A DNA stretch of 24,410 bases from a virus: the IMG/VR virus record IMGVR_UViG_3300032278_000116, positions 1 through 24,410 of that record. One strand, written 5' to 3'. Position 1 is the stretch's first letter. Each line of letters starts with the position of its first letter. This document shows, piece after piece, positions 5,490 through 21,919 of the stretch. The notes below the pieces were generated by a model. The model saw only the letters and a program-made list of their open reading frames with translations, searched no databases and was not told where the DNA came from. The translations under genes were made by a program, and so were the position numbers.

Positions 5490-5771
5490 ATGGAGATACA
5501 ACCCTTTAACCGCTACATCTGGGTTCGAAAGGAGGAGGGATCCGAGGAGGACGAATCAGAAGTTCTTTTACCCGACGGATACCAGACCACACGCGGTCCT
5601 GAATTCGTCGTGGTAAAGGTTGTAGATATAGCTGACGATGCTCCCGATTTGGATTTCTGTTGCGGGGACTCAATAATAGTTCGCAACTCCATGATTGAGT
5701 CGGTGAGCGTTCCGTCTGGCAATTTCGATATAATTCTAGCCAACCACATTGTGGGAAAAATAGTTGAGTGA
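5490..5771 (+). CDS. groES: GroES-like co-chaperonin
   Basis: A 93-residue protein with the GroES (cpn10) strand order: PFNRYIWVRKEE at the N-terminus (family: PLxDRVLV), a Ser/Glu-rich stretch where the mobile loop lies, VLLPDGY, VVVKVVDIADDAPDL, CGDSIIVRNSM and the ending ILANHIVGKIVE (family: ILxEDILAxIE). Seven such heptamerising subunits would cap a GroEL ring, and a GroEL gene is in the same window at 20342. The mobile loop is short and acidic and diverges from host GroES, as in T4 gp31-like proteins. The start codon is one base after the preceding stop; the end overlaps the next gene by 8 bases. The assignment rests on the pattern and on the presence of GroEL. Confidence 0.72.
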   Translation: MEIQPFNRYIWVRKEEGSEEDESEVLLPDGYQTTRGPEFVVVKVVDIADDAPDLDFCCGDSIIVRNSMIESVSVPSGNFDIILANHIVGKIVE

Positions 5772-7526: not shown

Positions 7527-10500
7527 ATGGAGAACAAGTTGAAAATGGAACAGAAAATTCCCTTTGTGAATTTACATGGACACAGTTGTTTTAGCATTTT
7601 TGATGGTCTGGGCTACCCTCAAGAGCATATGGACTTTGCGTTTAGCAATGGCTCCGATGCCCTGGCGCTAACGGATCACGGAAATATGAATGGACTGGCA
7701 TATCAGGTCTTGCACGCTAAGAAGATGCGTGCCGAGGGTAAGAATTTTAAGCCGATTTAAGGCATCGAAGCGTACTTCGTTAAGTCCCTAAGTGAATGGC
7801 GTAGAACCTATGAGAGCCTACAAGAGGTCAAGAAGAAAAAGCGGGCGGCTCAGTCAGCAGCTACAGTTGAAGACGAGGGCGAGACCAAGAGCGGAGAGAA
7901 GGATTTTATTAAGCGTAGGTCTCACTTGATCCTGCTTGCGAAAAATCAAACAGGGTTGAGCAACCTTTTTCAGATTGTCTCCAAATCATATAAGTCGGAG
8001 AACTTTTATCGCTATCCGAGAATCGACTTCGAAATGTTGCGTGAGCATAGCGAGGGGGTGATTGTATCTTCTGCTTGCATGGGCGGCGTTTTGTCACAGG
8101 ACTATTGGATGAGTCGTGACTTCGGAGACGAGGCGATACAGATGGCAATGCAAGAAACGGTCGAACAGTTTCAGGATATTTTCGGTGATGACTTTTTTGG
8201 AGAGTTGCAGTGGAGCAAGACCCCGGAGCAGCATGAGATTAATAAAAATATTATTGCAGTTTCCAAGAAGACCGGGCTCAAACTTATTTCCACGGCTGAC
8301 AGTCACTACCCTAATCCTGATGCGTTCAAGGATAGGGAACTGTATAGGCAACTGGGGTGGCTAGGACGCGCCAAGCCCGGTTACGCGGAAGATGCCCTCC
8401 CGAGTTCCAGAGAAGGATTGGCGTATGAACTCTATCCAAAAAATGGCGACGAGATGTGGGAGGCGTATAAGCGATATTCTTCAGCCGTCGGTGTTGAGTA
8501 CGATGACGAGCTTGTCAGAGAGAGCATTACCATTACTCACAAGATTGCCCACGAACTTATTGAAGACTTCTACCCGGAGACGGCAGTGCGCCTTCCCAAC
8601 TTTGTGGTGCCCGATGGTGATAATGAGACCAGTGCCCTGACAAAGCTTTGCCTTGCGGGTCTCAAGAGTCAGCAGCTTGACGGAAAGCCGCAGTATGTGT
8701 CGAGACTCAAAGAGGAGTTGGACGTTATTAGCGAGCGTGGGTTTAGCAAATACTTTTTAACGATGAAGGCAATAGCAGACAAGGCTACGGGAGTTCAACT
8801 AACCGGCGCTGGTCGAGGTTCCGCTGCGGGTTCGTTAGTAGCATACGTTCTCGGCATCACACAGGTTGACCCGATCAAGTATGGGCTCTTGTTCAGTCGC
8901 TTCTTGCGCAGGGACGCAAAAGACTATCCAGATATTGATTATGACGTTTCGGATCCAATGGCACTTAAGGAACTCTTGATAGAGGAATGGGGAGAGAACA
9001 CAGTGGTTCCAATAACGAATTGGAATACGCTCCAACTTAGATCCTTGGTTAAGGACATCTCAAAGTTCTATGGTATTCCCTTTACCGAGGTGAATCAGGT
9101 AACGGGCAAGATGCTCAAAGAGGCGACACCGAAAGCGAAAAAGAAACATGGGATTACAGCCGGTGTCTACAGCCCGACATTCGAAGAGTTGATGGAATAC
9201 TCTGAATCTCTTCAGAAATTCCTGCGAAAATATCCACAGGTGAAGACTCATGTTAATGCCCTTTACGGACAGGTCCGTTCAGCCTCCAGACATGCTGGCG
9301 GCGTTGTGATCGCAGACGACCTACACAAACACATGCCGTTGATTAATTCGGGCGGCGTGCGTCAAACACCCTGGAGCGAAGGGCAAAACGTCAGACACTT
9401 GGAGCCTCTTGGTTTTATTAAATTTGATATTTTGGGGCTAGCTTCATTGAGGATGGTCGAAGGGTGCATTAGGCAGATATTACAAAGGCATCACGGAGTT
9501 CAGGAGCCGACGTTCGAGGAGATTAAAAAGTATTATGAGGAAAGGCTGCACCCGGATACAATTAATTTTGATGATCAAGATGTGTACGAGAATGTCTTTC
9601 ATCGGGGACGCTGGGCTGGCATCTTTCAGTTTACGGAGAAGGGGGCACAGGGATTCTGCAAGCGAGCGAAGCCGACTTCCATAATTGACTTGGCGGCAAT
9701 TACCTCAATATATCGTCCCGGTCCTTTATCCGCCAATGTACATGATATGTATGTGGGCGCTAAAGAGAACCCCGTTAATATTAAATATGTCCACCCGGTC
9801 GTTGAAGAGGTCACCAATGAAACTTTTGGTTTTCTAATTTTTCAGGAACAGATTGCCCTGCTGGCACATAAGCTGGGCAAGAATCTTTCATTGGACGAGG
9901 GGAATAAACTTCGAAAGCTCTTAACCAAGAAGGGTACGGGCAAAGGGCACGAAGAGAAGACGGCGATTTATGATAAATTTATCGCTGGGTGCCTTGAGAA
10001 GGGTATGATACGTCATCAGGCAGATGGTCTGTGGAGAACTTTTGAATATTTTTCGGGCTACGGGTTTAATAAATCTCATGCCGTTAGCTATAGTATTCTT
10101 AGTTATCAGTGTGCTTGGTTATTCAATTATTATCCTTCCGAGTGGATGGCTGCTTTTTTGGATAAAGAACCAGAGTCCCGCAAAGAGAAAGCGATTGGGA
10201 TCGCCAAGAACATGGGGTTTGACGTCCGAGGGGTCGATATAAATCTTTCGAGCAACACCTGGGACATAGATCCGGGGGACTCAAAAACGCTAGTTCAACC
10301 TCTTAGCTCCATTAAGGGTCTGGGTGAGAAAGCGATAGAACAGATTGTCAATAATAGACCCTTCAACTCGGTAGATCAGTTGTTGTTCAGTGATGGCATT
10401 TCGTATTCGAAGCTGAACAAGAAAGCCCTTGATGTGTTGTGTCGCAGCGGCGCATTGAAAAGCCTAATAGACGACAGGTTTTCAGGGGCGAAACATTTTT

Positions 10501-10955
10501 GGTCAGCGGTAGCGGTTGACAGACCGAAGAGTAAAAAGAAGTTTGAGGATAACATCGATCTTTATGAGCCAGAGGGCAACTTTACAAACGAAGAGTTGGT
10601 TGAAAACTTGGTTAGCCTGACGGGAATTTTTCCCATGCACATGATCATGCGGGACTCCATCAAAGAAAGTCTGGAAGAGAATTGCGTGCCACCTTTGGGT
10701 GAGTGGGATGAGGACATTAACGTGGCTTGGTTTGTACCCAGAGAGGTTCTGGTTAAGAAGACTGTTCGTGGCAGACCATATTATATTATAAAGGTCATAG
10801 ACTCGACGTCTAAGATGAATTCGATTAAGTGCTGGGGCGTCCAGCCAGGGAAGGACAATGTCTTTCTAAATCACCCCTACATGGCTAGGCTTGACTACGA
10901 TGAGCAGTGGGGCTTTAGCGCAAAAGGGCTGAAGAATTTTCGGCTCCTGGGTTAA
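7527..10955 (+). CDS. dnaE: DNA polymerase III alpha subunit (family C), interrupted by in-frame TAA
   Basis: Replicative family C polymerase; 1142 codons including one internal TAA at 7758-7760 (codon 78). Before the stop: the PHP domain start with NLHGHSCFSIFDG (H17, H19) and ALTDHGNMNG (D50, H51). After it, in the same frame: GIEAYFV, RRSHLILLAKNQTG and STADSHYPNPDAF, completing the PHP metal site. The palm has GAGRGSAAGSLVAY and PDIDYD (8928-8945), and the third catalytic Asp lies in KFDILGLASL. STYRPG-like SIYRPGPLS, FQEQIALLA and the GYGFNKSHAVSYS fingers region are all present. A helix-hairpin-helix (IKGLGEKAIEQIV) and an OB-like end follow. The intact HxH/DH/E/DxH PHP ligands suggest proofreading activity within this chain. 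No SD precedes ATG 7527; GGAG at 7529-7532 could serve TTG 7539 or ATG 7545. Without readthrough, TTG 7926 is the first in-frame start after the stop, which would lose the PHP metal ligands. Confidence 0.92.
7758..7760 (+). other. In-frame TAA within the polymerase PHP domain
   Basis: The TAA lies exactly where family members read KPI-x-GIE-Y: the frame gives FKPI, stop, GIEAYFV. The reading frame is unbroken for 55 codons between this stop and TTG 7926, and those codons are conserved in kind. TAA also ends about half the genes in this window, so general recoding of TAA is not plausible. A nonsense mutation, sequence error or local readthrough remain possible. Confidence 0.9.
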
Positions 10956-14030: not shown

Positions 14031-14522
14031 ATGGGCAAGAAGACGAGATTAGACGAAGTTACTGTACGTCGGTTTATGAAGCTTGCAGAGCTAGACCGCG
14101 TTGTCGCAGAGAAGTTTTTTAGTGAACAGGAAGAGGAGGAGGTACCCGTCGAGGATCCTGCCGCCGAGGAGGTACCCGTCGAGGATCCTGCCGCCGAAGA
14201 TCCTGCCGCTGAAGAAGCCCCTGCCGAAGGCGAGGCTGGACCTGAAGAGGTGGAAATGGCTGAGCGTGTGGCGAGTGCCGTGATGGTTGCTCTTGAAGAC
14301 GAGCTTGGAGTTAGCACCGACGTTGCCGTTCCCGAGGAGGGCGGTGAGGAAGAGGTTGCTGTTGAAGAGCCACCCGTCGAAGAACTCCCAGGTGAGGAAG
14401 AGATTGCTCCCGAGGAGGATCTTCCACTACAGGAGCGAGTTGTTAACGAGGTGACTCGTCGAGTTGCGCATCGCCTGCTTAAACTCAAGAAGGGCAAGAC
14501 GAAACGACGCTCCAGGCGATAA
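14031..14522 (+). CDS. Acidic Glu/Pro-rich protein, possible head or scaffold protein
   Basis: A 163-residue protein with three parts: a basic/amphipathic head (LDEVTVRRFMKLAELDRVV), a long acidic, Pro/Ala/Glu-rich middle (about 37-140), and a strongly basic tail (LLKLKKGKTKRRSRR). Its middle includes the decapeptide EEVPVEDPAA twice, made by a perfect 30-bp tandem repeat, and a third partial copy (EDPAA). Acidic middle plus basic end recalls prohead core or internal head proteins of T4-type phages, but no homology is visible. AAGGAGATTACAAA precedes ATG 14031. The very different base composition of the acidic part reflects the Glu/Pro codons. Function unknown. Confidence 0.78.
   Translation: MGKKTRLDEVTVRRFMKLAELDRVVAEKFFSEQEEEEVPVEDPAAEEVPVEDPAAEDPAAEEAPAEGEAGPEEVEMAERVASAVMVALEDELGVSTDVAVPEEGGEEEVAVEEPPVEELPGEEEIAPEEDLPLQERVVNEVTRRVAHRLLKLKKGKTKRRSRR
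14136..14195 (+). repeat. Perfect 30-bp tandem repeat, two copies
   Basis: The units at 14136-14165 and 14166-14195 are identical and in frame, each encoding EEVPVEDPAA. A partial third unit (EDPAA) follows with a few base differences (14196-14210). Exact identity over 30 bases suggests a recent duplication by slippage. Confidence 0.95.
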
Positions 14523-14617: not shown

Positions 14618-15013
14618 ATGAGCGAGATAATTGTGGCGGGGTTGTGGTTTTTGGCAGGAGCTTTGCTTTACAAGGGCTTCAGTTACATGATAGACTTGGG
14701 CGCTCGTGCGTTGTTCGCGAAGGCTCTTCTTGTAGATGCCTTGCAACTAGCTCTTATTATGGTAGAAGATGTTTCCACTGCGCGAGCACTGAAGTACTCG
14801 CAGATGGAGGGGGCAAACCTCGATGAAAAAGATATTAAGTTAGTCAAGGCATTCGACGAAGCGGCGATGAAAAGCTGGCAAACGGCAGTTATTCGTAAAA
14901 TAATTGCAACCTTCCCTAAACAATACAGCGGACTAATTACTTTTGATGATTGGCAGGGTGCAATGGACACCTTGAACAAGGAAGTCAAAAGAGGAGAAAC
15001 GAAATGGACTTAG
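14618..15013 (+). CDS. Small protein with one N-terminal membrane segment
   Basis: A 131-residue protein. Residues 4-20 (IIVAGLWFLAGALLYKG) form a probable transmembrane or membrane-inserting helix directly at the N-terminus, followed by further amphipathic helices (ALFAKALLVDALQLALIM) and a charged helical C-terminus. It could be a single-pass protein with a cytoplasmic C-terminal part. GAGGTGAAAC gives a good ribosome binding site. The end overlaps the next gene by 10 bases. It is not recognised; a role in virion structure, membrane anchoring or lysis is conceivable, and the presence of an endolysin three genes later does not settle it. Confidence 0.72.
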   Translation: MSEIIVAGLWFLAGALLYKGFSYMIDLGARALFAKALLVDALQLALIMVEDVSTARALKYSQMEGANLDEKDIKLVKAFDEAAMKSWQTAVIRKIIATFPKQYSGLITFDDWQGAMDTLNKEVKRGETKWT

Positions 15014-16305
15014 ATGAACTTAGAAAATTGATTAGCGAAGCGTGGAGAAAGAATGATATTTTACTTGAGTCCCCAGACCTTCTCGGTGAAAGACTCGACG
15101 GAAAGTATCTATTCAAGGCCTTGTTTGTTCTAGGTCCAGCGGGATCGGGCAAGACTTACCTTATCAAAAATAGATTGAATGTTCCCTTCAGCCCGAAGGG
15201 AAGTAATACTGGCAACTCTTTCGCCCTCAGAAATCCAGATGAAACGATTGAAGAGAAGTTTCCAGAGGTGGGCTTGTCGATGAAATTCATTAATGATACC
15301 TATGACCCCGCAGATACCGCTACGCAGATGCTCGGAAAAGAGCAGCTAAAATATGCCCAACAGATGTCTAGAAGAGTTATTCAGCAGGGACAGCGAAGTC
15401 ACACTGCTAATTTGGTTGCTGTTGGTGCGCCGCTCCTGTTTGATACCACGGGTGAGAACGTCGGAAAGATGACACCACGGATGAATCAACTCACCCAACT
15501 TGGATACGATGTGGGGATCTTTTTAAACATGGTCCCCGAAGAGGCTTCCGTCGAGAGAGACGACAAGAGGGATAGGACCGTTGGAGCAGGTATTACCACA
15601 GCCATTCATCAGCAATATGCTGAAGAGGTGGTGCGGCTGAAGGGGTTTGCCGACTCTGCCGCTGGGAACGAGCATGTTACTGTTTTTGGTGGTGGAGAGG
15701 TTTACTGGAATGTTTTTGACGATGACGGGGCTCTCCTCCAAAAGCCGACAGTTGTAACCCCCGAGATGTTGCCGGATGAAATTAACCCAGAGAAGAATCC
15801 CGAAGCACCCGCCAAGTATAAAGCAATTCTTGACACAGCAAAGGGTGAAATCCAGTCCTTCGTCGGCGGCGCGGAGCCCAACAACCCAAAGGGCAAGACT
15901 CTCTTATCAGCAATGAAAAAGCTCAATGATGCGTCCAATGGGGTACTGGGTCGGAACATGTTTGATCTGGGGACAGCCGTTCTCTTGGGAGATCCCTATA
16001 TTAATGATGATGTCATCATGAGCGGCGTTGCCGTCCTTGAGGCTGCGGGCGGCGTGGAATTATCTCAGAACATGAAAACGGGGGAAGCAGCGGCAGCTAG
16101 CGCCCCCGACCAGCCTGCAGTTGAACCAGCATTAAGGGGCAAGAAGGATACCAAAAAACATACGGTACGAGGCTTGGCTCGCGGCGTCGGCTCCGACGTC
16201 GGACCAGCAGGTGCAAAGCCAGAAGGTGGCAGAATGACCGAATCTGAGTTAGCTAATATGATTGCCAATGAGATTTTTGAGGTAATATATGGGTCTGACT
16301 CCTGA
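15004..16305 (+). CDS. P-loop kinase-like (AAA_33/zeta-toxin-like) protein with terminal targeting-like helices
   Basis: A 433-residue protein from ATG 15004, preceded by GAGGAG; it overlaps the previous gene by 10 bases. Residues 41-51 (FVLGPAGSGKT) are a Walker A loop. LLFDTTGENVGK fits a Walker B strand, and VPEEASVERDDKRDR resembles the lid Arg-rich segment of zeta-toxin and polynucleotide kinase-like enzymes. A phosphorylating role on a small or macromolecular substrate is inferred, but the substrate is unknown. The N-terminus MDLDELRKLISEAW contains IxE followed by Ala, like a T4 prohead-protease site, and the C-terminus (MTESELANMIANEIFEVI) carries a related helix. A Lys/Pro/Ala linker lies between about 350 and 405. 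Confidence in the P-loop is high, in the kinase class moderate. Confidence 0.78.
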   Translation: MDLDELRKLISEAWRKNDILLESPDLLGERLDGKYLFKALFVLGPAGSGKTYLIKNRLNVPFSPKGSNTGNSFALRNPDETIEEKFPEVGLSMKFINDTYDPADTATQMLGKEQLKYAQQMSRRVIQQGQRSHTANLVAVGAPLLFDTTGENVGKMTPRMNQLTQLGYDVGIFLNMVPEEASVERDDKRDRTVGAGITTAIHQQYAEEVVRLKGFADSAAGNEHVTVFGGGEVYWNVFDDDGALLQKPTVVTPEMLPDEINPEKNPEAPAKYKAILDTAKGEIQSFVGGAEPNNPKGKTLLSAMKKLNDASNGVLGRNMFDLGTAVLLGDPYINDDVIMSGVAVLEAAGGVELSQNMKTGEAAAASAPDQPAVEPALRGKKDTKKHTVRGLARGVGSDVGPAGAKPEGGRMTESELANMIANEIFEVIYGSDS

Positions 16306-16567
16306 CGAAGAGATAAAGCGGAAAGAGATCGTAGATTGGGCTTTGAAGCAGGACGGAACTCTGGTTAGGGACGGCAATTCGATTTCCGCTGAAAGACTTT
16401 TCTTGGCAAATTCTGTTATTATATGGTGTATCAAAAAAATGCGAGACGAAGAGCTTAAGCCCGCTGAGGCACAAGGCTACGTTTTTTTTATGAAAAAATA
16501 TATTCTCGGAGCCCTTGACTTATTCTGGGAAAGTGGTATATTGTATGTGAGCGCAGTCGATGAATAA
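16289..16567 (+). CDS. Unknown small protein
   Basis: Ninety-two residues starting at ATG 16289, overlapping the end of the P-loop gene by 17 bases, with GAGG upstream. It is mostly helical: a charged N-terminal helix (TPDEEIKRKEIVDWALKQ), a hydrophobic centre (ERLFLANSVIIWCIKKM) and aromatic-rich end (GYVFFMKKYILGALDLFWES). It has no transmembrane helix that is clearly long enough, no Cys motif and no recognised family. Its start and end overlap with neighbours, so it is co-translated with them, but no function can be inferred. Confidence 0.65.
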   Translation: MGLTPDEEIKRKEIVDWALKQDGTLVRDGNSISAERLFLANSVIIWCIKKMRDEELKPAEAQGYVFFMKKYILGALDLFWESGILYVSAVDE

Positions 16568-16572
16568 GGAGG
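16566..16572 (+). promoter_or_regulatory. Strong ribosome binding site fixing GTG 16581
   Basis: AAGGAGG, matching the 16S rRNA anti-SD core, sits 8 bases before GTG 16581. It overlaps the stop codon of the previous gene, coupling translation of the two. Confidence 0.8.
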
Positions 16573-16580
16573 AAGCTAGC

Positions 16581-16922
16581 GTGAGAGCCATTGCATGGAG
16601 AGAACCAAAAAGTGAAGAGGGTTATGTTTATCGAATTCAAGTCGATGGGCTTTCCACTAGGACGGAGAAGAAAATTTTACGAGTCTGCGGTGAAGCTGAT
16701 TGGATTCACGCAGGAGGAGGCTGGGATCCGAAAAGGAAGAAGTCAATTCTAATCCTCAGTAGGGAATTTCCAACAGAGGATGAGTGGATTACCTGGGCGA
16801 GAGAGTTCCCGTACCCACTAAAGGAACAGAATAGCAAGGGCGGGTATAAATCGATTAAGCTTGGCACAGACTCTAAGAATGTGCGACGAGGTCGCCCGAG
16901 AAAGGAAAGAGGACGTGCCTAG
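16581..16922 (+). CDS. Unknown protein with C-terminal AT-hook
   Basis: A 113-residue protein. GTG 16581 is chosen over ATG 16560 because the strong AAGGAGG at 16566-16572 lies 8 bases before the GTG, whereas the ATG has no ribosome binding site. The body is an alpha/beta domain (YVYRIQVDGLSTRTEKKILR, then a Trp-rich stretch, then ILILSREFPTEDEWITWAREF). The C-terminus, NVRRGRPRKERGRA, contains the core RGRPRK of an AT-hook, which binds the minor groove of AT-rich DNA. The last 8 bases overlap the peptidase start. DNA binding is inferred from the hook only; the folded part is not recognised. Confidence 0.75.
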   Translation: MRAIAWREPKSEEGYVYRIQVDGLSTRTEKKILRVCGEADWIHAGGGWDPKRKKSILILSREFPTEDEWITWAREFPYPLKEQNSKGGYKSIKLGTDSKNVRRGRPRKERGRA

Positions 16923-17583
16923 AAAAAAGAAGACAGACATTGAGATAGAGACAGTAACACCAGAGGAGTTGACGGACGAGGAAACTTTTCAGTTGGTTAA
17001 CCTTATTAGTTCGGTCTCTGGTCCCTCCGAGAGATCTTCGAAGCCTCGCATCGTATCCCTTTATGGAGAGATCGATGAGGAGCAGTGCGCCGAGGTGGCA
17101 TTTACGCTGCTGGCTCTCAGTGAAATGGGTGTGCAGGTTGAGCCAGAGGTAGAGGGTGGTCCCATGGGAGAAGCGATAAAGCTTTTGATTTCTACCGCAG
17201 GGGGATCTGCCTCGGACATGCTTGCTGTTTATGACGCCATTCGGATGGTCAAGCCCGCGTGTCCTGTGGAAACCGTCGGGCTTGGCAAGGTGATGTCCGC
17301 AGGGGTCTTGTTGCTTGCTGCGGGCACCAGGGGTAAGAGGCGCATAGGTCAGAACTGCAGGGTGATGATCCACGGTGTAGCTGCTGGAGCCGGGGGTGCC
17401 GTCTATAGTCTTGAGAATGAGCTTGAGGAGATCAAGCACACCCAGGACCAGTACATTAAATTACTTGCCCGCGAAACAGATATGACCGTTTCCTACATCA
17501 AGAAGCTAATTAATAGGAAGCTCAATGTATATTTGACAGCGAGTGAAGCCGTTGAACTTGGTATAGCTGATGAGGTTGTATGA
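16915..17583 (+). CDS. clpP: ClpP-type peptidase (S14) with Asn in place of catalytic Asp
   Basis: A 222-residue ClpP-fold protein from GTG 16915, which has AAAGGAAAGAGG upstream; longer starts at 16861 or 16879 have none. SLYGEIDEEQ and KLLISTAGGSASDMLAVYDA are the typical central strands. The nucleophile is Ser128 (GKVMSAGVLLLAAG) and the general base His153 (RVMIHG), both in their usual settings. Family members have R-D before FxSAxEA; here the matching residues are Leu203-Asn204 (RKLNVYLTASEAVELG), so the third triad member is lost. The N-terminus adds about 40 residues, basic then acidic. It may degrade host proteins with a Clp ATPase or process proheads; either is inference. The stop is immediately followed by the next start. 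Confidence 0.85.
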   Translation: MPRKKKTDIEIETVTPEELTDEETFQLVNLISSVSGPSERSSKPRIVSLYGEIDEEQCAEVAFTLLALSEMGVQVEPEVEGGPMGEAIKLLISTAGGSASDMLAVYDAIRMVKPACPVETVGLGKVMSAGVLLLAAGTRGKRRIGQNCRVMIHGVAAGAGGAVYSLENELEEIKHTQDQYIKLLARETDMTVSYIKKLINRKLNVYLTASEAVELGIADEVV

Positions 17584-18495
17584 ATGTCTGATTTTTATAA
17601 TAGAGCCAGCGCACATAAGTTGGGCTGGAATCCTTCATGGTTTGATGCAACCGAATTCGATGAAGAGCTTGCTGAAAAGGTTCGTGAATTCCAAAAGCTG
17701 ATGAACATCGAGCCCGATGGGCTCTGTGGTCCCCTGACCTTCGCTCGTGCGATGACAGAGAGGGAAGCAAAATATCACCAGACAATGCAGCGCCTTGGAG
17801 TTCATGCCAAGCCAGACAATGTAAAATATTTTATTGCGAACGGCAAGAAAGTTCCCATCGAGTGGGATAAATTTGTTTCGCTCAAGGATCCTGACAACCT
17901 TGCCCTCCCAAGCAATTGTTTCAGGTGGGAGATAAAGCGACAGCCCATGATGATTGTGACCCACTGGGATGCGGCACTGTCAGCCAAGTCTTGCAGGAGC
18001 ATCCTAGAGAGGCGGGGGATCTCCAGCCACTTTGTCATCGACAACGACGGCACCATTTATCAGATGGTCGACACGTCTTGTGTGGGCTGGCATGCCGGGA
18101 ACAGGAGAGTTAATAATAGATCGATTGGAATAGATTTCAGCAACGCTTTTTATAAGAAGTATCAGGGTCACTATGTCAAGAAGGGATTTGGCGAGCGACC
18201 CCTTATAACAGACAGCCACGTTCACGGTGTCAAGCTTGAGGATCACCTTGGCTACTACCCCGTGCAGATAGAGGCATACAAGGCTTTACTTCGGGCCTTG
18301 ATGAGCCATTACCCCATCCCCGCAGAATATCCTTGCAAGGGAGAGACAGATAAGTTATTGTTAGGTGTAGATCCCGACGCTGCCAGTGCTAAGTTCAGCG
18401 GAGTCGTGAGCCACTACCACATTACGAGGAGAAAGATTGATTGTGCGGGTCTGGAATTAGATAAAATTATCAAGGAGTTACGAGATGAGTCTTAA
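17584..18495 (+). CDS. Endolysin: peptidoglycan-binding domain plus N-acetylmuramoyl-L-alanine amidase
   Basis: A 303-residue cell-wall hydrolase that would cut the amide bond between MurNAc and the peptide stem. Residues 26-52 (DEELAEKVREFQKLMNIEPD, then GLCGP) are a PG_binding_1 motif at the N-terminus. Residues 120-290 form an amidase_2/PGRP domain: MMIVTHWDA with zinc-ligand His127, SSHFVIDNDGTIYQMVD, GWHAGNRRVNNRSIGIDFSN, and SHYHITRRKIDCAG with the probable His277/279 and Cys287 ligands as in T7 lysozyme-type amidases. No signal peptide, so release would need a holin; a holin is not identifiable here. The C-terminus LDKIIKELRDES is helical. It overlaps the next gene by 11 bases. Confidence 0.9.
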   Translation: MSDFYNRASAHKLGWNPSWFDATEFDEELAEKVREFQKLMNIEPDGLCGPLTFARAMTEREAKYHQTMQRLGVHAKPDNVKYFIANGKKVPIEWDKFVSLKDPDNLALPSNCFRWEIKRQPMMIVTHWDAALSAKSCRSILERRGISSHFVIDNDGTIYQMVDTSCVGWHAGNRRVNNRSIGIDFSNAFYKKYQGHYVKKGFGERPLITDSHVHGVKLEDHLGYYPVQIEAYKALLRALMSHYPIPAEYPCKGETDKLLLGVDPDAASAKFSGVVSHYHITRRKIDCAGLELDKIIKELRDES

Positions 18496-20278
18496 GTTTG
18501 AAGAATTAGTGAAGCTGGTCGAAGAGGTCAGCACAAATTATCAGAAGTCAGATAGGATCAAGAAGCACGCAACCAAACGCTTGTCCACTAAGGGCAAGAA
18601 GAACAAGGACGGCACACCATACTCCCAGGATCCACCAACCGCGAGAGCGAAGAGCGCACCTCCAGGCGCTGGCTTCACAATGGAAGAGCTTTATAAATTA
18701 ATTGATGAGGCACTGGAAGAGCAGCCTTGGGAGTCCGACGAGGAGGAGGATATTTACGGGTCGCTCCCCGATCCCGATGCCGAGAGCATGGTCGATGCTG
18801 CGCTCGATGGCGATGTACTCACCGCCATCAAGGCAAAAATGTTAGAAATGGGGGAAGTTCCGCAGGGCAAGAACATGGAAAGGCTTGAAGTTGTCTTGGT
18901 GCCCCCCGGTAAAAGAAAATCTTATCCCGAGCGAGACAAAAAGGTGATGGTCCCAGAATACCTCAGAAGCGAACCGCAAATGCTTGAAGTCCTTAAACAA
19001 GCCATGCTCAGTCAATTCCCCGAGCCCGAGCATACCTTCTCAGAGTATGTGTCTCCTCGTACTGGAAATCCGCAAGGGTGGCTGGTGAGTAAACAGGTGG
19101 GCACCACCAAGGGTGGCAAGCCGAAGGTCGCGGTCGTCTCTAAGTACTACTTTAAGCCTTCGGGTAGGTCGTCATTGAATCAGGGCGATGTTGCAGAGGG
19201 TATACTCGGAGCAGGATTATACGCCAAGTTTTTGAATCCAGCCGCGACAATTAATGAGGGGCACATTCACACAGTTCTTGAAAAAATCAAGGCGGCCGCC
19301 CCCGAAGATTCCGGCGGGAAAAATACAAGAGCGGAGATCACCAAGGTGAGCAAGCGTAAGGGTGGTGCAGATGAGGTCACGCTTACCATTGCCCTGGCGA
19401 AAGCCAACTTTGACGCATTGGTAGATCCAAAATGGCACGCAGAGTTAAAAGGAAAGTATAAATCCGTCTTAGCTTATTTGGCTGGTGAAAAAATATTAGA
19501 GGGAACTCAAGAGGAGGCGGTGGACAAGAAAAAGTCTAAGATAGAAATAATTTCTGATGGCGTCGGTGACCAGAAAGGTACAAAGGTAGATGTGAAGGTG
19601 ATAATTGATAATCAGCCGACAACTCTGGGTCAAATCTCCCTAAAGGCGGGCTCTAAACAGTTGGGGCAAGTTGGTAGCGGCTCTTGGGATCTGATTTCTG
19701 GCGGCGACGGATTCTTTGCTGACGTACTTACGGTGCAACCCGCCCCGAGCCTGGAAGAGGCCTGGCGAAAGGCTTGGGAGGAAAAGAACGGTGTCGAGTT
19801 GAACAAGCTGGGGCACACCATGTACAAACAAATGGCAAAAGAAGTAAAAGCTCTCAGGGGGACAGACGACGACGGCGATACCGAGGCAGCATTTATAACG
19901 AGAATGGTTAAGGGCATACGACAAGCTGCAGCAGGTTACACCGTCGCCACGGACGAAAAAACCGGCGAAAAGACCAAACAGCCCATAGAGGGCGTAAAAG
20001 TTCTCGACTTCGACCGGGGTGATTATAAGATTTTAGATTTTGATCTGCTGTCTGTGGTGTTGGACGCTGCGGATATTGATCTGGTCTGTGAATACACTAA
20101 GGAAGACCGCCCAAAAATTATTATCCGCGACAAGAACGGTGCTGGAAGCCTGATATCCATCAGAATGAGGTTCGAGGGGGAAGTCGCGAGGGGGAAGGAG
20201 ATTTCTAATCTTCGCCACTACGTTGAAAAAGAGCCTCTTCTTTCCAAGCTTATTAATATTGCGACCCCTAAGAATTAA
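18485..20278 (+). CDS. Large protein with targeting-like N-terminal helices; possible nuclease-like core
   Basis: A 597-residue protein, not matched to a known family. Residues 3-16 (LKFEELVKLVEEVS) and 64-77 (FTMEELYKLIDEAL) are two copies of a short amphipathic helix with V/IxE, resembling T4 capsid-targeting/prohead-cleavage signals, joined by a basic Lys/Pro-rich linker. An acidic patch (ESDEEEDIYG) follows. In the core, QGDVAEGILGAGL (E238), KVDVKV (D369) and ISLKAGSKQLGQ (S385, K387) have the order of PD-(D/E)xK nuclease elements, with SxK instead of (D/E)xK. That fold is a weak suggestion. DFDLLSVVLDAADIDL and IRMRFEGEV near the end are unassigned. It is the last gene before the GroEL promoter. 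Confidence 0.75.
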   Translation: MSLKFEELVKLVEEVSTNYQKSDRIKKHATKRLSTKGKKNKDGTPYSQDPPTARAKSAPPGAGFTMEELYKLIDEALEEQPWESDEEEDIYGSLPDPDAESMVDAALDGDVLTAIKAKMLEMGEVPQGKNMERLEVVLVPPGKRKSYPERDKKVMVPEYLRSEPQMLEVLKQAMLSQFPEPEHTFSEYVSPRTGNPQGWLVSKQVGTTKGGKPKVAVVSKYYFKPSGRSSLNQGDVAEGILGAGLYAKFLNPAATINEGHIHTVLEKIKAAAPEDSGGKNTRAEITKVSKRKGGADEVTLTIALAKANFDALVDPKWHAELKGKYKSVLAYLAGEKILEGTQEEAVDKKKSKIEIISDGVGDQKGTKVDVKVIIDNQPTTLGQISLKAGSKQLGQVGSGSWDLISGGDGFFADVLTVQPAPSLEEAWRKAWEEKNGVELNKLGHTMYKQMAKEVKALRGTDDDGDTEAAFITRMVKGIRQAAAGYTVATDEKTGEKTKQPIEGVKVLDFDRGDYKILDFDLLSVVLDAADIDLVCEYTKEDRPKIIIRDKNGAGSLISIRMRFEGEVARGKEISNLRHYVEKEPLLSKLINIATPKN

Positions 20279-20341: not shown

Positions 20342-21919
20342 ATGAGCAAGGTATACGAGAACGATCATTCACTGCATGAGAAAATCATTGCAGGTGTCAA
20401 CAAATTGGCGGATAATGTCGCCAGCACTCTAGGACCGAGAGGTCGAAATGTGTTGCTCCAAGAACATGGCAAGCGACCAATCATCACAAAGGACGGCGTG
20501 ACCGTCGCTAATTTTATAGACTTTGAAGACCCGTTTGAAAACGCTGGTGCTCAAATTCTCAAGCAGGCTGCTGATCAGACCAACGAGAGAGCAGGGGACG
20601 GCACAACAACTGCCACAGTCCTGGCTCGCGACATGTTGATTAAGGCACAACGACACATCACCGCAGGCTGCTCACCCGTTGAGCTTAAACGGGGGATGGA
20701 CAAAGCCACTGAGGCAATCATCGAGCAGCTTAAGAACATGGCAACCCCGGTCAACGAACTGGGTCACATCGAGCACGTTGCAACGATCTCAGCCAACAAC
20801 GATAAACATATCGGCAAGCTGATTGCCACGGCAGTCGACAAGGCGGGCAAGGACGGTGCTATCAACGTCGAAGAGGCACGTTCTATGGAGACCACCCTGG
20901 ACTTGGTGGAGGGCTTTGTATTTGATTCAGGATACATCTCTGCGCAATTTATTAATAATGAGCGCCGTGGCTCTGTCTCGTATGAGAACCCTTTAATTCT
21001 TATTACAGACCACAAGATTGAGCAGGTGGAAGAGATGCTTCCCATTCTGGAGATCGTGGCACGCGACGGTTCACCCCTGTTAATCGTAGGCGAAGAGGTC
21101 GCAGGGCAAGCCCTGGCAGCACTCATCGTTAACGTCGTCAGGGGGACCATGAAGATTGCAGCAGTGAGAGCACCGCGCTATGGCGAGGAGAGAAGAAATT
21201 CCCTCAAGGACTTGGCACTGGCAACGGGCGGAACCTTCGTTAGCCGGGAATCTGGCTTAGCCCTCAAGGACGTTAAGCTCAAGAACCTGGGCAGGGCCCA
21301 ATCGGTGAACGTCACCAAGGTGACCACAACCATCGTGGGTGGTGACGGCAACCCGAAGGAGATTGAAAAAAAGATTGATGCCATCAAGACGGAGATAGAG
21401 CAGACCGACTCAACGCAAGAGGCGGAGTTCTTGGCACAACGCATCACTCGGCTGGCTTCGGGTGTCGCAATCATCAAGGTGGGTGCCGCAACAGAGGTCG
21501 AGATGATTGAAAAAAAGCACCGCATAGAGGACGCTCTAGAGGCTGTTAGGGCAGCGCAGACAGAGGGTATCGTACCGGGCGGCGGAATTGCCCTCCTGCG
21601 GGCTTTAAGGGGGGCTCAATTAGACGTTGACAACCCCGACCAGCGTATGGGTGCTAGCCTAGTGTTCGATTCACTGACTGCCCCCATACGACAGATGGCA
21701 AAGAACGCTGCAGTCTCACCTGACATCGTGGTGAGCGTGGTGACCTCAGAGGAGATAGACGAGAACACTGGATATGATTTTGCAACTGATCGTGTGGTAG
21801 ATATGTTCGAAGAGGGTATCATCGATCCGGTGAAGGTGACATGCATAGCATTAGCCAACGCATCTTCTGTTGCGGGCGCACTAATTACTACAAACCATGC
21901 GATCGTGGAAAACGGGTAG
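20342..21919 (+). CDS. groEL: GroEL-type chaperonin (phage-encoded)
   Basis: A 525-residue group I chaperonin forming ATP-driven folding rings. It opens with the family's equatorial segments ([39 protein letters not shown]) and ATP-site [14 protein letters not shown]. The apical segment [15 protein letters not shown] follows, as does [10 protein letters not shown]-like [37 protein letters not shown] contains the catalytic-Asp region. [13 protein letters not shown] and the ending [13 protein letters not shown] are typical. The C-terminal GGM-repeat tail of bacterial GroEL is missing; the protein stops at AIVENG. With the GroES-like gene at 5490 it makes a phage chaperonin pair, perhaps for capsid or polymerase folding. 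It is translated from a clear ribosome binding site behind its own promoter. Confidence 0.96.

Follow-up and report, generated by a model that had tools for sequence, protein, structure and literature searches.

Putative capsid-targeting helices at the ends of a kinase-like and a nuclease-like protein of a marine T4-type phage

Why should two unrelated enzymes of one virus carry similar short helices at their ends? The question is raised by a virus fragment of 24,410 bases (IMG/VR record IMGVR_UViG_3300032278_000116; the whole stretch is called the window), which encodes a P-loop kinase-like protein (the 15004 product) and a nuclease-like protein (the 18485 product). An earlier note on this DNA likened the helices to the capsid-targeting sequence (CTS) of phage T4 and proposed that both proteins are packaged in the head and injected. 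In T4, proteins reach the scaffold core by means of the CTS, for which ten residues of IPIII are enough, and gp21 then removes the CTS (PMC9026906, PMC3012670). Except for T4 and a few jumbo phages, the phage proteins that enter a bacterium with the DNA are mostly unknown. The analysis presented here makes it probable that the helices serve a T4-type phage as capsid-targeting sequences and that both enzymes are packaged in the head.

The 15004 product opens with the helix DELRKLISEAWRK (quoted in the earlier note as MDLDELRKLISEAW, at residue 1) and ends with the peptide ELANMIANEIFEVI. In the 18485 product, the peptides are FEELVKLVEEV (at residue 5) and MEELYKLIDEAL (at residue 66). All four quoted peptides are present in the translations. 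Three of them follow the pattern ELxxLIxEA that had been claimed for all, whereas the C-terminal kinase peptide reads ELANMIANE and departs from it, though a similar helix is conserved there. Structure prediction, which had been proposed as a check, gave helices at the quoted positions: AlphaFold2 places them at residues 3-16 and 413-429 of the kinase and at residues 5-18 and 66-79 of the nuclease-like protein, in each case on low-confidence linkers. The N-terminus of the latter is largely disordered and holds both of its helices. These helices are assigned to what is called here the class II tag (M-K-I-T-x-x-x-L-x-x-I-I-x-E-E; example MDLDELRKLISEAWRKNDILLES). The features of the two genes are as follows, with a slash directly after a Glu outside brackets marking a known or candidate cleavage site here and below.

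15004..16305, plus strand: tagged kinase, 433 aa, P-loop fold of the polynucleotide kinase (PNK) / zeta-toxin / AAA_33 type (structure comparison)
15010..15051, plus strand: N-terminal class II tag helix, residues 3-16, LDELRKLISEAWRK (AlphaFold2 helix; about 31 homologues)
15061..15072, plus strand: LLE/S, residues 20-23, candidate prohead-protease site (homologue alignment)
15133..15156, plus strand: P-loop GPAGSGKT, residues 44-51 (GPAGxGK invariant in 20 homologues)
16240..16290, plus strand: C-terminal class II-like helix, residues 413-429 (AlphaFold2 helix behind a disordered linker)
18485..20278, plus strand: tagged nuclease-like protein, 597 aa, PHROG 3560 family (PHROG match)
18497..18538, plus strand: tag helix 1, residues 5-18, FEELVKLVEEVSTN (model; helix 1 of a tandem tag in the same slot of relatives)
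18680..18721, plus strand: tag helix 2, residues 66-79, MEELYKLIDEALEE (model; aligns with LVDIIREVIREE of a syntenic relative)
19178..20260, plus strand: putative restriction-endonuclease-like domain, residues 232-592 (invariant residues and VIA match)

Relatives (loci L and genomes G below) were obtained from IMG/VR by way of the window DnaE, which has 178 relatives there (80 kept, at 63-94% identity), and by profile searches; single-sequence IMG/VR searches with the kinase, the nuclease-like protein and ClpP gave no matches. In these genomes, two kinds of N-terminal tag recur on unrelated proteins, small and large, and a segment of 10-20 residues is common to the starts of otherwise unrelated proteins of the phage group. 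The class I tag, MKLIMENWRKFLNE (M-K-L-I-M-E-N-W-R-K-F-L-N-E), resembles MKTYQEFIAE of T4; the class II tag is the helix of the earlier note. That note had described the signal on two proteins. Both do carry it, and the tagging system is far wider, extending genome-wide in this phage group.

The two classes replace each other on the same cargo. Among SAM lyases, class I tags read IWRKFISE/SSLSR (L068, L081) and FINE/SSISR (L085), class II tags read LCSLIEEV...KLIKE/SSLSR (L059) and LKGLIHEA...LTE/SSYNR (L032; L013 is also of class II), and both alike end at [LI]xE/SS. These proteins match PF23780, L032 and L013 below its cut-off. The junction [LIF]xE/SS is found in 11/11 SAM lyases seen (Phe at P3 in one), including those of Mel-JY01, S-CREM2, AG-345-L05 and Alishewanella, Campylobacter and Lak phages, and the tag of the marine virus AG-345-L05, MKTFKEFLEE/SSLSR, shares its first seven residues with T4 IPI. 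The tagged SAM lyases are likely to be injected anti-restriction enzymes. The one of Mel-JY01, the isolate nearest to this group, is L005:2405; its N-terminus is like class I, and at its C-terminus there is a helix like class II.

L068:1901, L081:1911, L085:5745, L059:3666, L032:6374, L013:3391, L005:2405: tagged SAM lyases (PF23780) of marine T4-type phages

In addition, the 18485 family has class II tags in the window, L132, L135 and L136 and no tag in its cyanophage members, and L163 has a class I tag, MKLLMETWRKYLKEAEEF, on a gene directly after the amidase, which is the same genomic slot. Class II and a known type of CTS thereby stand in for each other on two kinds of cargo, the SAM lyases and the 18485 family. 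The reverse exchange is found in the slot between amidase and GroEL. Here, the tandem tag is kept (MPDWNKLIEEQW...LVEMVEKV, MSNLDNLIKEHY...LIEEVM, METNWDLLIENHF...LVEMVEETL) and in several relatives the cargo does not match the nuclease-like family; the BLAST similarity of L205:5859 or L024:20146 to L132/L135 lies essentially within the first ~33 residues. Because tags are swapped on orthologous cargo and cargo is swapped behind the same tag, the tags are, on sequence comparison, modules that are interchangeable between cargo. As class II replaces class I on the same cargo, it would work as class I does, in head targeting.

These exchanges already disfavour a chance or inherited likeness, in which the tag would be an ordinary N-terminal amphipathic helix of acidic, Leu-rich phage proteins, and this explanation is very improbable. 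The motif is short, which speaks for it, and so does the modest enrichment of class II. In held-out data, i.e. related contigs from which the kinase and 18485 families were removed, a more general class II motif (residues 4-13) was observed at 24 N-termini against 12.6 expected (p = 0.003), so the helix that the earlier note had suggested seeking at other protein termini is over-represented there. The class I motif was found at 8 N-termini against 0.5 expected (p = 8e-8). This enrichment, the family-wide conservation, the tag swap and the cargo swap with its confined similarity all argue against chance. As a description only, the expression [EDK][LF]..[LM][IV].E[AV], fitted to its three window matches (N = 3), has 3 matches in 7,673 aa of window open reading frames vs 1 in ~251,000 aa of six related genomes. 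The motif (L/I)xE before a small residue is by itself not discriminating, and a generic class II peptide searched against isolates gave one weak record.

Is the phage of the kind that could use such a signal? The ribonucleotide reductase (RNR) and helicase of the window are closest to those of Microcystis phage Mel-JY01, the record of which is annotated with a T4-like capsid protein, a prohead protease and a gp19-type tail tube. The DnaE relative G006 (93 kb) shares synteny with the window and carries head genes as well: Peptidase_S77 (E 1.7e-35), Gp23 major capsid protein, Portal_T4 and terminase. Because of this synteny and the affinity to Mel-JY01, the phage is very likely a marine phage of T4 type, as far as its genes tell. 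The gp21-like prohead protease called for by the earlier note was found in relatives (S77 type; G002, G003, G004, G006 and Mel-JY01) and is missing from the window fragment. The gp23 N-termini of relatives conserve ...ENQAK(E/Q)L(L/I)(R/S)E/A, a site of the same kind as in the tags, and the T4 propeptides IPIII MKTYQEFIAE/A and gp24 MAKINELLRE/S have this form; the window offers ISE/A, LLE/S and IDE/A. A T4-CTS-like role of the helices is thus supported by the tag swaps, by the S77 protease of relatives and by the end of the gp23 propeptide.

The last point also bears on the destination of the tags. They could lead to another part of the virion, such as the neck, the tail tube or the baseplate; alternatively, the proteins could stay in the capsid without being injected. 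Virion proteomics cannot separate head from tail, and L007:12463 of Mel-JY01, which adjoins a tail lysozyme gene, also has IRKIIREE helices. This alternative is nevertheless unlikely: the partner in the swap, the T4 CTS, is a scaffold-core signal (PMC9026906, PMC3012670), and the tag site matches the gp23 propeptide.

Further support for head targeting came from the virion proteome of the cyanophage S-CREM2, determined by mass spectrometry (PMC10665884, Table 3). Of the 8 proteins with the class I motif in their first 30 aa, 7 are virion proteins, vs 36/178 of the others (p = 1.6e-4), and all 5/5 matches that start at residue 4 are virion proteins. Tagged virion proteins include the SAM lyase gp6 (19 peptides), the kinase gp14, the Cas9-like gp12 and the cytidylyltransferase gp154; in gp71 (not virion) and gp122 (virion) the motif lies further inside and is probably due to chance. 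In the parts of the paper covered here, virion presence is reported with no mention of a targeting tag.

These data also weigh on the strongest competing explanation, by which the helices would serve for docking or oligomerisation and bring the enzymes to a phage complex in the cytoplasm, for replication or host take-over, rather than to the prohead. An amphipathic helix on a flexible linker at the end of a protein is a typical docking element, the kinase gene of the window has replication and metabolism genes around it, and the virion data are for class I. However, class II and the T4-CTS-like class I interchange on the same cargo at an [LIF]xE/S junction, and class I-tagged proteins, the SAM lyase included, are in S-CREM2 virions. 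Cytoplasmic docking is accordingly a minor contender, if a somewhat better one than another place in the virion.

Several findings weigh against head targeting of the two enzymes. The 24.4-kb fragment has no head genes, and gp21 and gp23 are seen in relatives only. The virion data cover class I-tagged proteins alone, a loose class II expression hits four S-CREM2 proteins (0/4 virion, none with a stereotyped tag), and the S-CREM2 authors consider that non-structural virion proteins may be contaminants (PMC10665884). The cytidylyltransferase of HTVC008M is without a clear tag. The class expressions were defined after inspection of related genomes, so that the data are held out in part, and the class II excess without the kinase and 18485 families is modest, as given above. 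Within the kinase family, the tag Glu is followed by a variable residue (A, E, V, S, Y), and LLE/SP is missing from clade 2.

The last two points concern where the kinase would be cut. Relatives of the kinase are found at 32 IMG/VR loci, and the N-terminal helix is present in essentially all of the ~31 homologues with a readable start (for example MNIDDLRKLIQEV, MKLNYETLRKLVLEEY and MQLKDIKQLIKEEV); the short Leu/Ile helix at the C-terminus is conserved in position and not strictly in sequence. The earlier note had placed cleavage at ISE/A, a site that did not hold up across the family. Some ten residues beyond it, LLE/SP is better conserved, in one clade only: in the alignment, clade 1 has [LIV][LI]E followed by S/A/R/M/E-P and clade 2 has LQE/A instead. 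Since LLExP is the better conserved in that clade, the kinase site may be LLE/S (residues 20-23) rather than ISE/A. Tags at both ends have a precedent in T4 Alt, where gp21 processes the two ends of the protein (PMC9026906).

The P-loop fold proposed for the 15004 product is supported by its model, with VIA scores of Z 11.4 to polynucleotide kinase 4gp7 (164 aa, rmsd 3.1) and Z 9.6 to zeta toxin 1gvn, so that the type is PNK / zeta toxin; Pfam AAA_33 and Zeta_toxin matches are below cut-off. Fold and P-loop are shared with these proteins, and the tags at both ends and the sub-threshold Pfam matches set the window kinase apart from them.

For the 18485 product, relatives of which are encoded at 65 IMG/VR loci, the suggested nuclease core is plausible, without having reached significance in Foldseek, which returned nothing significant for the protein. 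A PDB profile search with the family gave no match. The best VIA match is the restriction enzyme HinP1I, 1ynm (Z 6.1, below 8; rmsd 4.4, 204 aligned; next row 3.9), and E238, D369 and S385-x-K387 are invariant across 28 homologues. Because of these residues and this match, a PD-(D/E)XK nuclease is the best guess, and the invariant residues would form the putative active site. The likeness to HinP1I lies in the fold and in an active site of the D...x-x-K type; the differences are S385 before x-K, the weak similarity and the phage tags. Tag helix 1 is followed by a conserved linker, RLSTKGKKxxxGxPxxxDPPxxRxKSAPxGxG (window residues 22-62; also L132 and L135). A match to PF08858 'IDEAL' was below cut-off and was rejected as a chance match to the letters IDEAL.

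How would the tags work? The amphipathic end helix of class II (L-x-x-[LI]-I-x-E-[EA]) would bind the scaffold core of the prohead and draw the enzyme in; a gp21-type (S77) protease would cut after [LI]xE, so that the mature enzyme stays in the head along with the DNA and enters the host at infection. Class I would be used in the same way in the same phage group, the kinase being tagged at both ends and the nuclease-like protein in tandem. Cleavage and injection are suggested here by analogy with T4. In the host, the two enzymes would most likely act in counter-defence or early host takeover. For the tagged set as a whole, counter-defence is the leading guess, because restriction is blocked by the internal proteins of T4 (PMC12373910) and SAM lyases would have this effect as well. 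More broadly, it is somewhat favoured that a large group of marine T4-type phages has a modular, genome-wide packaging code, in which two interchangeable classes of end tag (single, tandem or both-ended) load swappable enzymes for delivery (a zeta-type kinase, a restriction-type nuclease, SAM lyases, NUDIX hydrolases and guanylate kinases), so that injected effectors could be read from sequence. If the tags are packaging signals, the injected sets of many uncultured marine phages could be listed in this way, and anti-restriction SAM lyases, a zeta-type kinase and a nuclease-type protein would already be among their members; new tags would also be at hand for putting enzymes into phage heads.

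The T4-type CTS itself is known. What would be new here is a second, interchangeable class of such tags with new cargo; no description of a second CTS class, or of a CTS in cyanophages, was found in openly accessible literature. The system shares with the T4 CTS (IPI, IPII, IPIII, Alt; gp21) a short N-terminal helix on unrelated proteins, (L/I)xE before a small residue in the window and the SAM lyases, though not throughout the kinase family, the S77 protease and gp23 in relatives, and double-ended tagging as in Alt. It differs in the class II form, L..[LI]I.E[EA] vs MKTYQEFIAE, in its tandem tags, in the side-by-side use with class I, and in its cargo, which consists of enzymes (kinase, nuclease-like protein, SAM lyase, NUDIX, guanylate kinase) rather than the small inhibitors of T4. 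The virion enzymes of T4-like cyanophages (in S-CREM2 a SAM hydrolase, an APH/ChoK-like kinase, a cytidylyltransferase and a Cas9-like nuclease) share the SAM lyase family and the class I tag, whereas the hosts are others and stereotyped class II tags are lacking. The head propeptides of PhiKZ and SPN3US share protease cleavage after Glu and propeptide-directed head entry, but they are mostly long, with an S/A-x-E or A-x-E motif and a more distant protease.

Other tagged proteins are a guanylate kinase and two NUDIX hydrolases (class I) and a DUF3293 protein (class II).

L054:22081, L125:253-759, L101:1113-1520, L067:5602: other tagged cargo

At 56683-59731 of G004, six small neighbour proteins have class II starts, and several class I-tagged genes lie nearby (61-78 kb). 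The adjacent gp53-57 of Agrobacterium phage Atu_ph07 (L003 405-6584) start with MRWEQLTE, MRWEQLNE or MKWNDLNE; they are partly paralogous, so that the shared start is not independent, and their gene cluster is rich in virion proteins. The gp53 protein has a kinase domain with a relationship to the 15004 product.

Two neighbours of the tagged genes had been thought to suit head assembly.

14031..14522, plus strand: acidic protein, N-terminus LxExxVRRFMxLAxL, prohead-core candidate (N-terminus conserved in four relatives, acidic rest variable)
16918..17583, plus strand: ClpP-type S14 peptidase, syntenic neighbour (Pfam CLP_protease 1.5e-33, PHROG 94 1.3e-20)

ClpP as a prohead protease was rejected as needless, since relatives carry a real S77 prohead protease besides ClpP. 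The N-terminus LxExxVRRFMKLAxL...FL, together with a basic C-terminal helix, is found in the window protein and at G006 53691, G004 21130, G003 131831 and L054 15499; this may be a third kind of end-tag, or the proteins may belong to the prohead core. A small protein encoded close to the S77 protease gene or immediately downstream of it (G006 6511, G004 157239, G003 83316, G002 171143) has the conserved N-terminus M(K/D)KxELKxxLKPLIKxCIKEVIFEEG. This protein has a helix similar to the class II tag and is perhaps the core protein to which such tags bind or from which they derive.

The DNA polymerase III alpha gene of the window (7527-10955) has an in-frame TAA at ~7758-7760 (FKPI(stop)GIEAYF). 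Because the 94% identical L008 has Tyr there (FKPIYGIEAYF), the TAA reads as a nonsense mutation or a base-call error. The window also encodes both a GroES-like protein (5490-5771) and a complete GroEL-like chaperonin (20342-21919).

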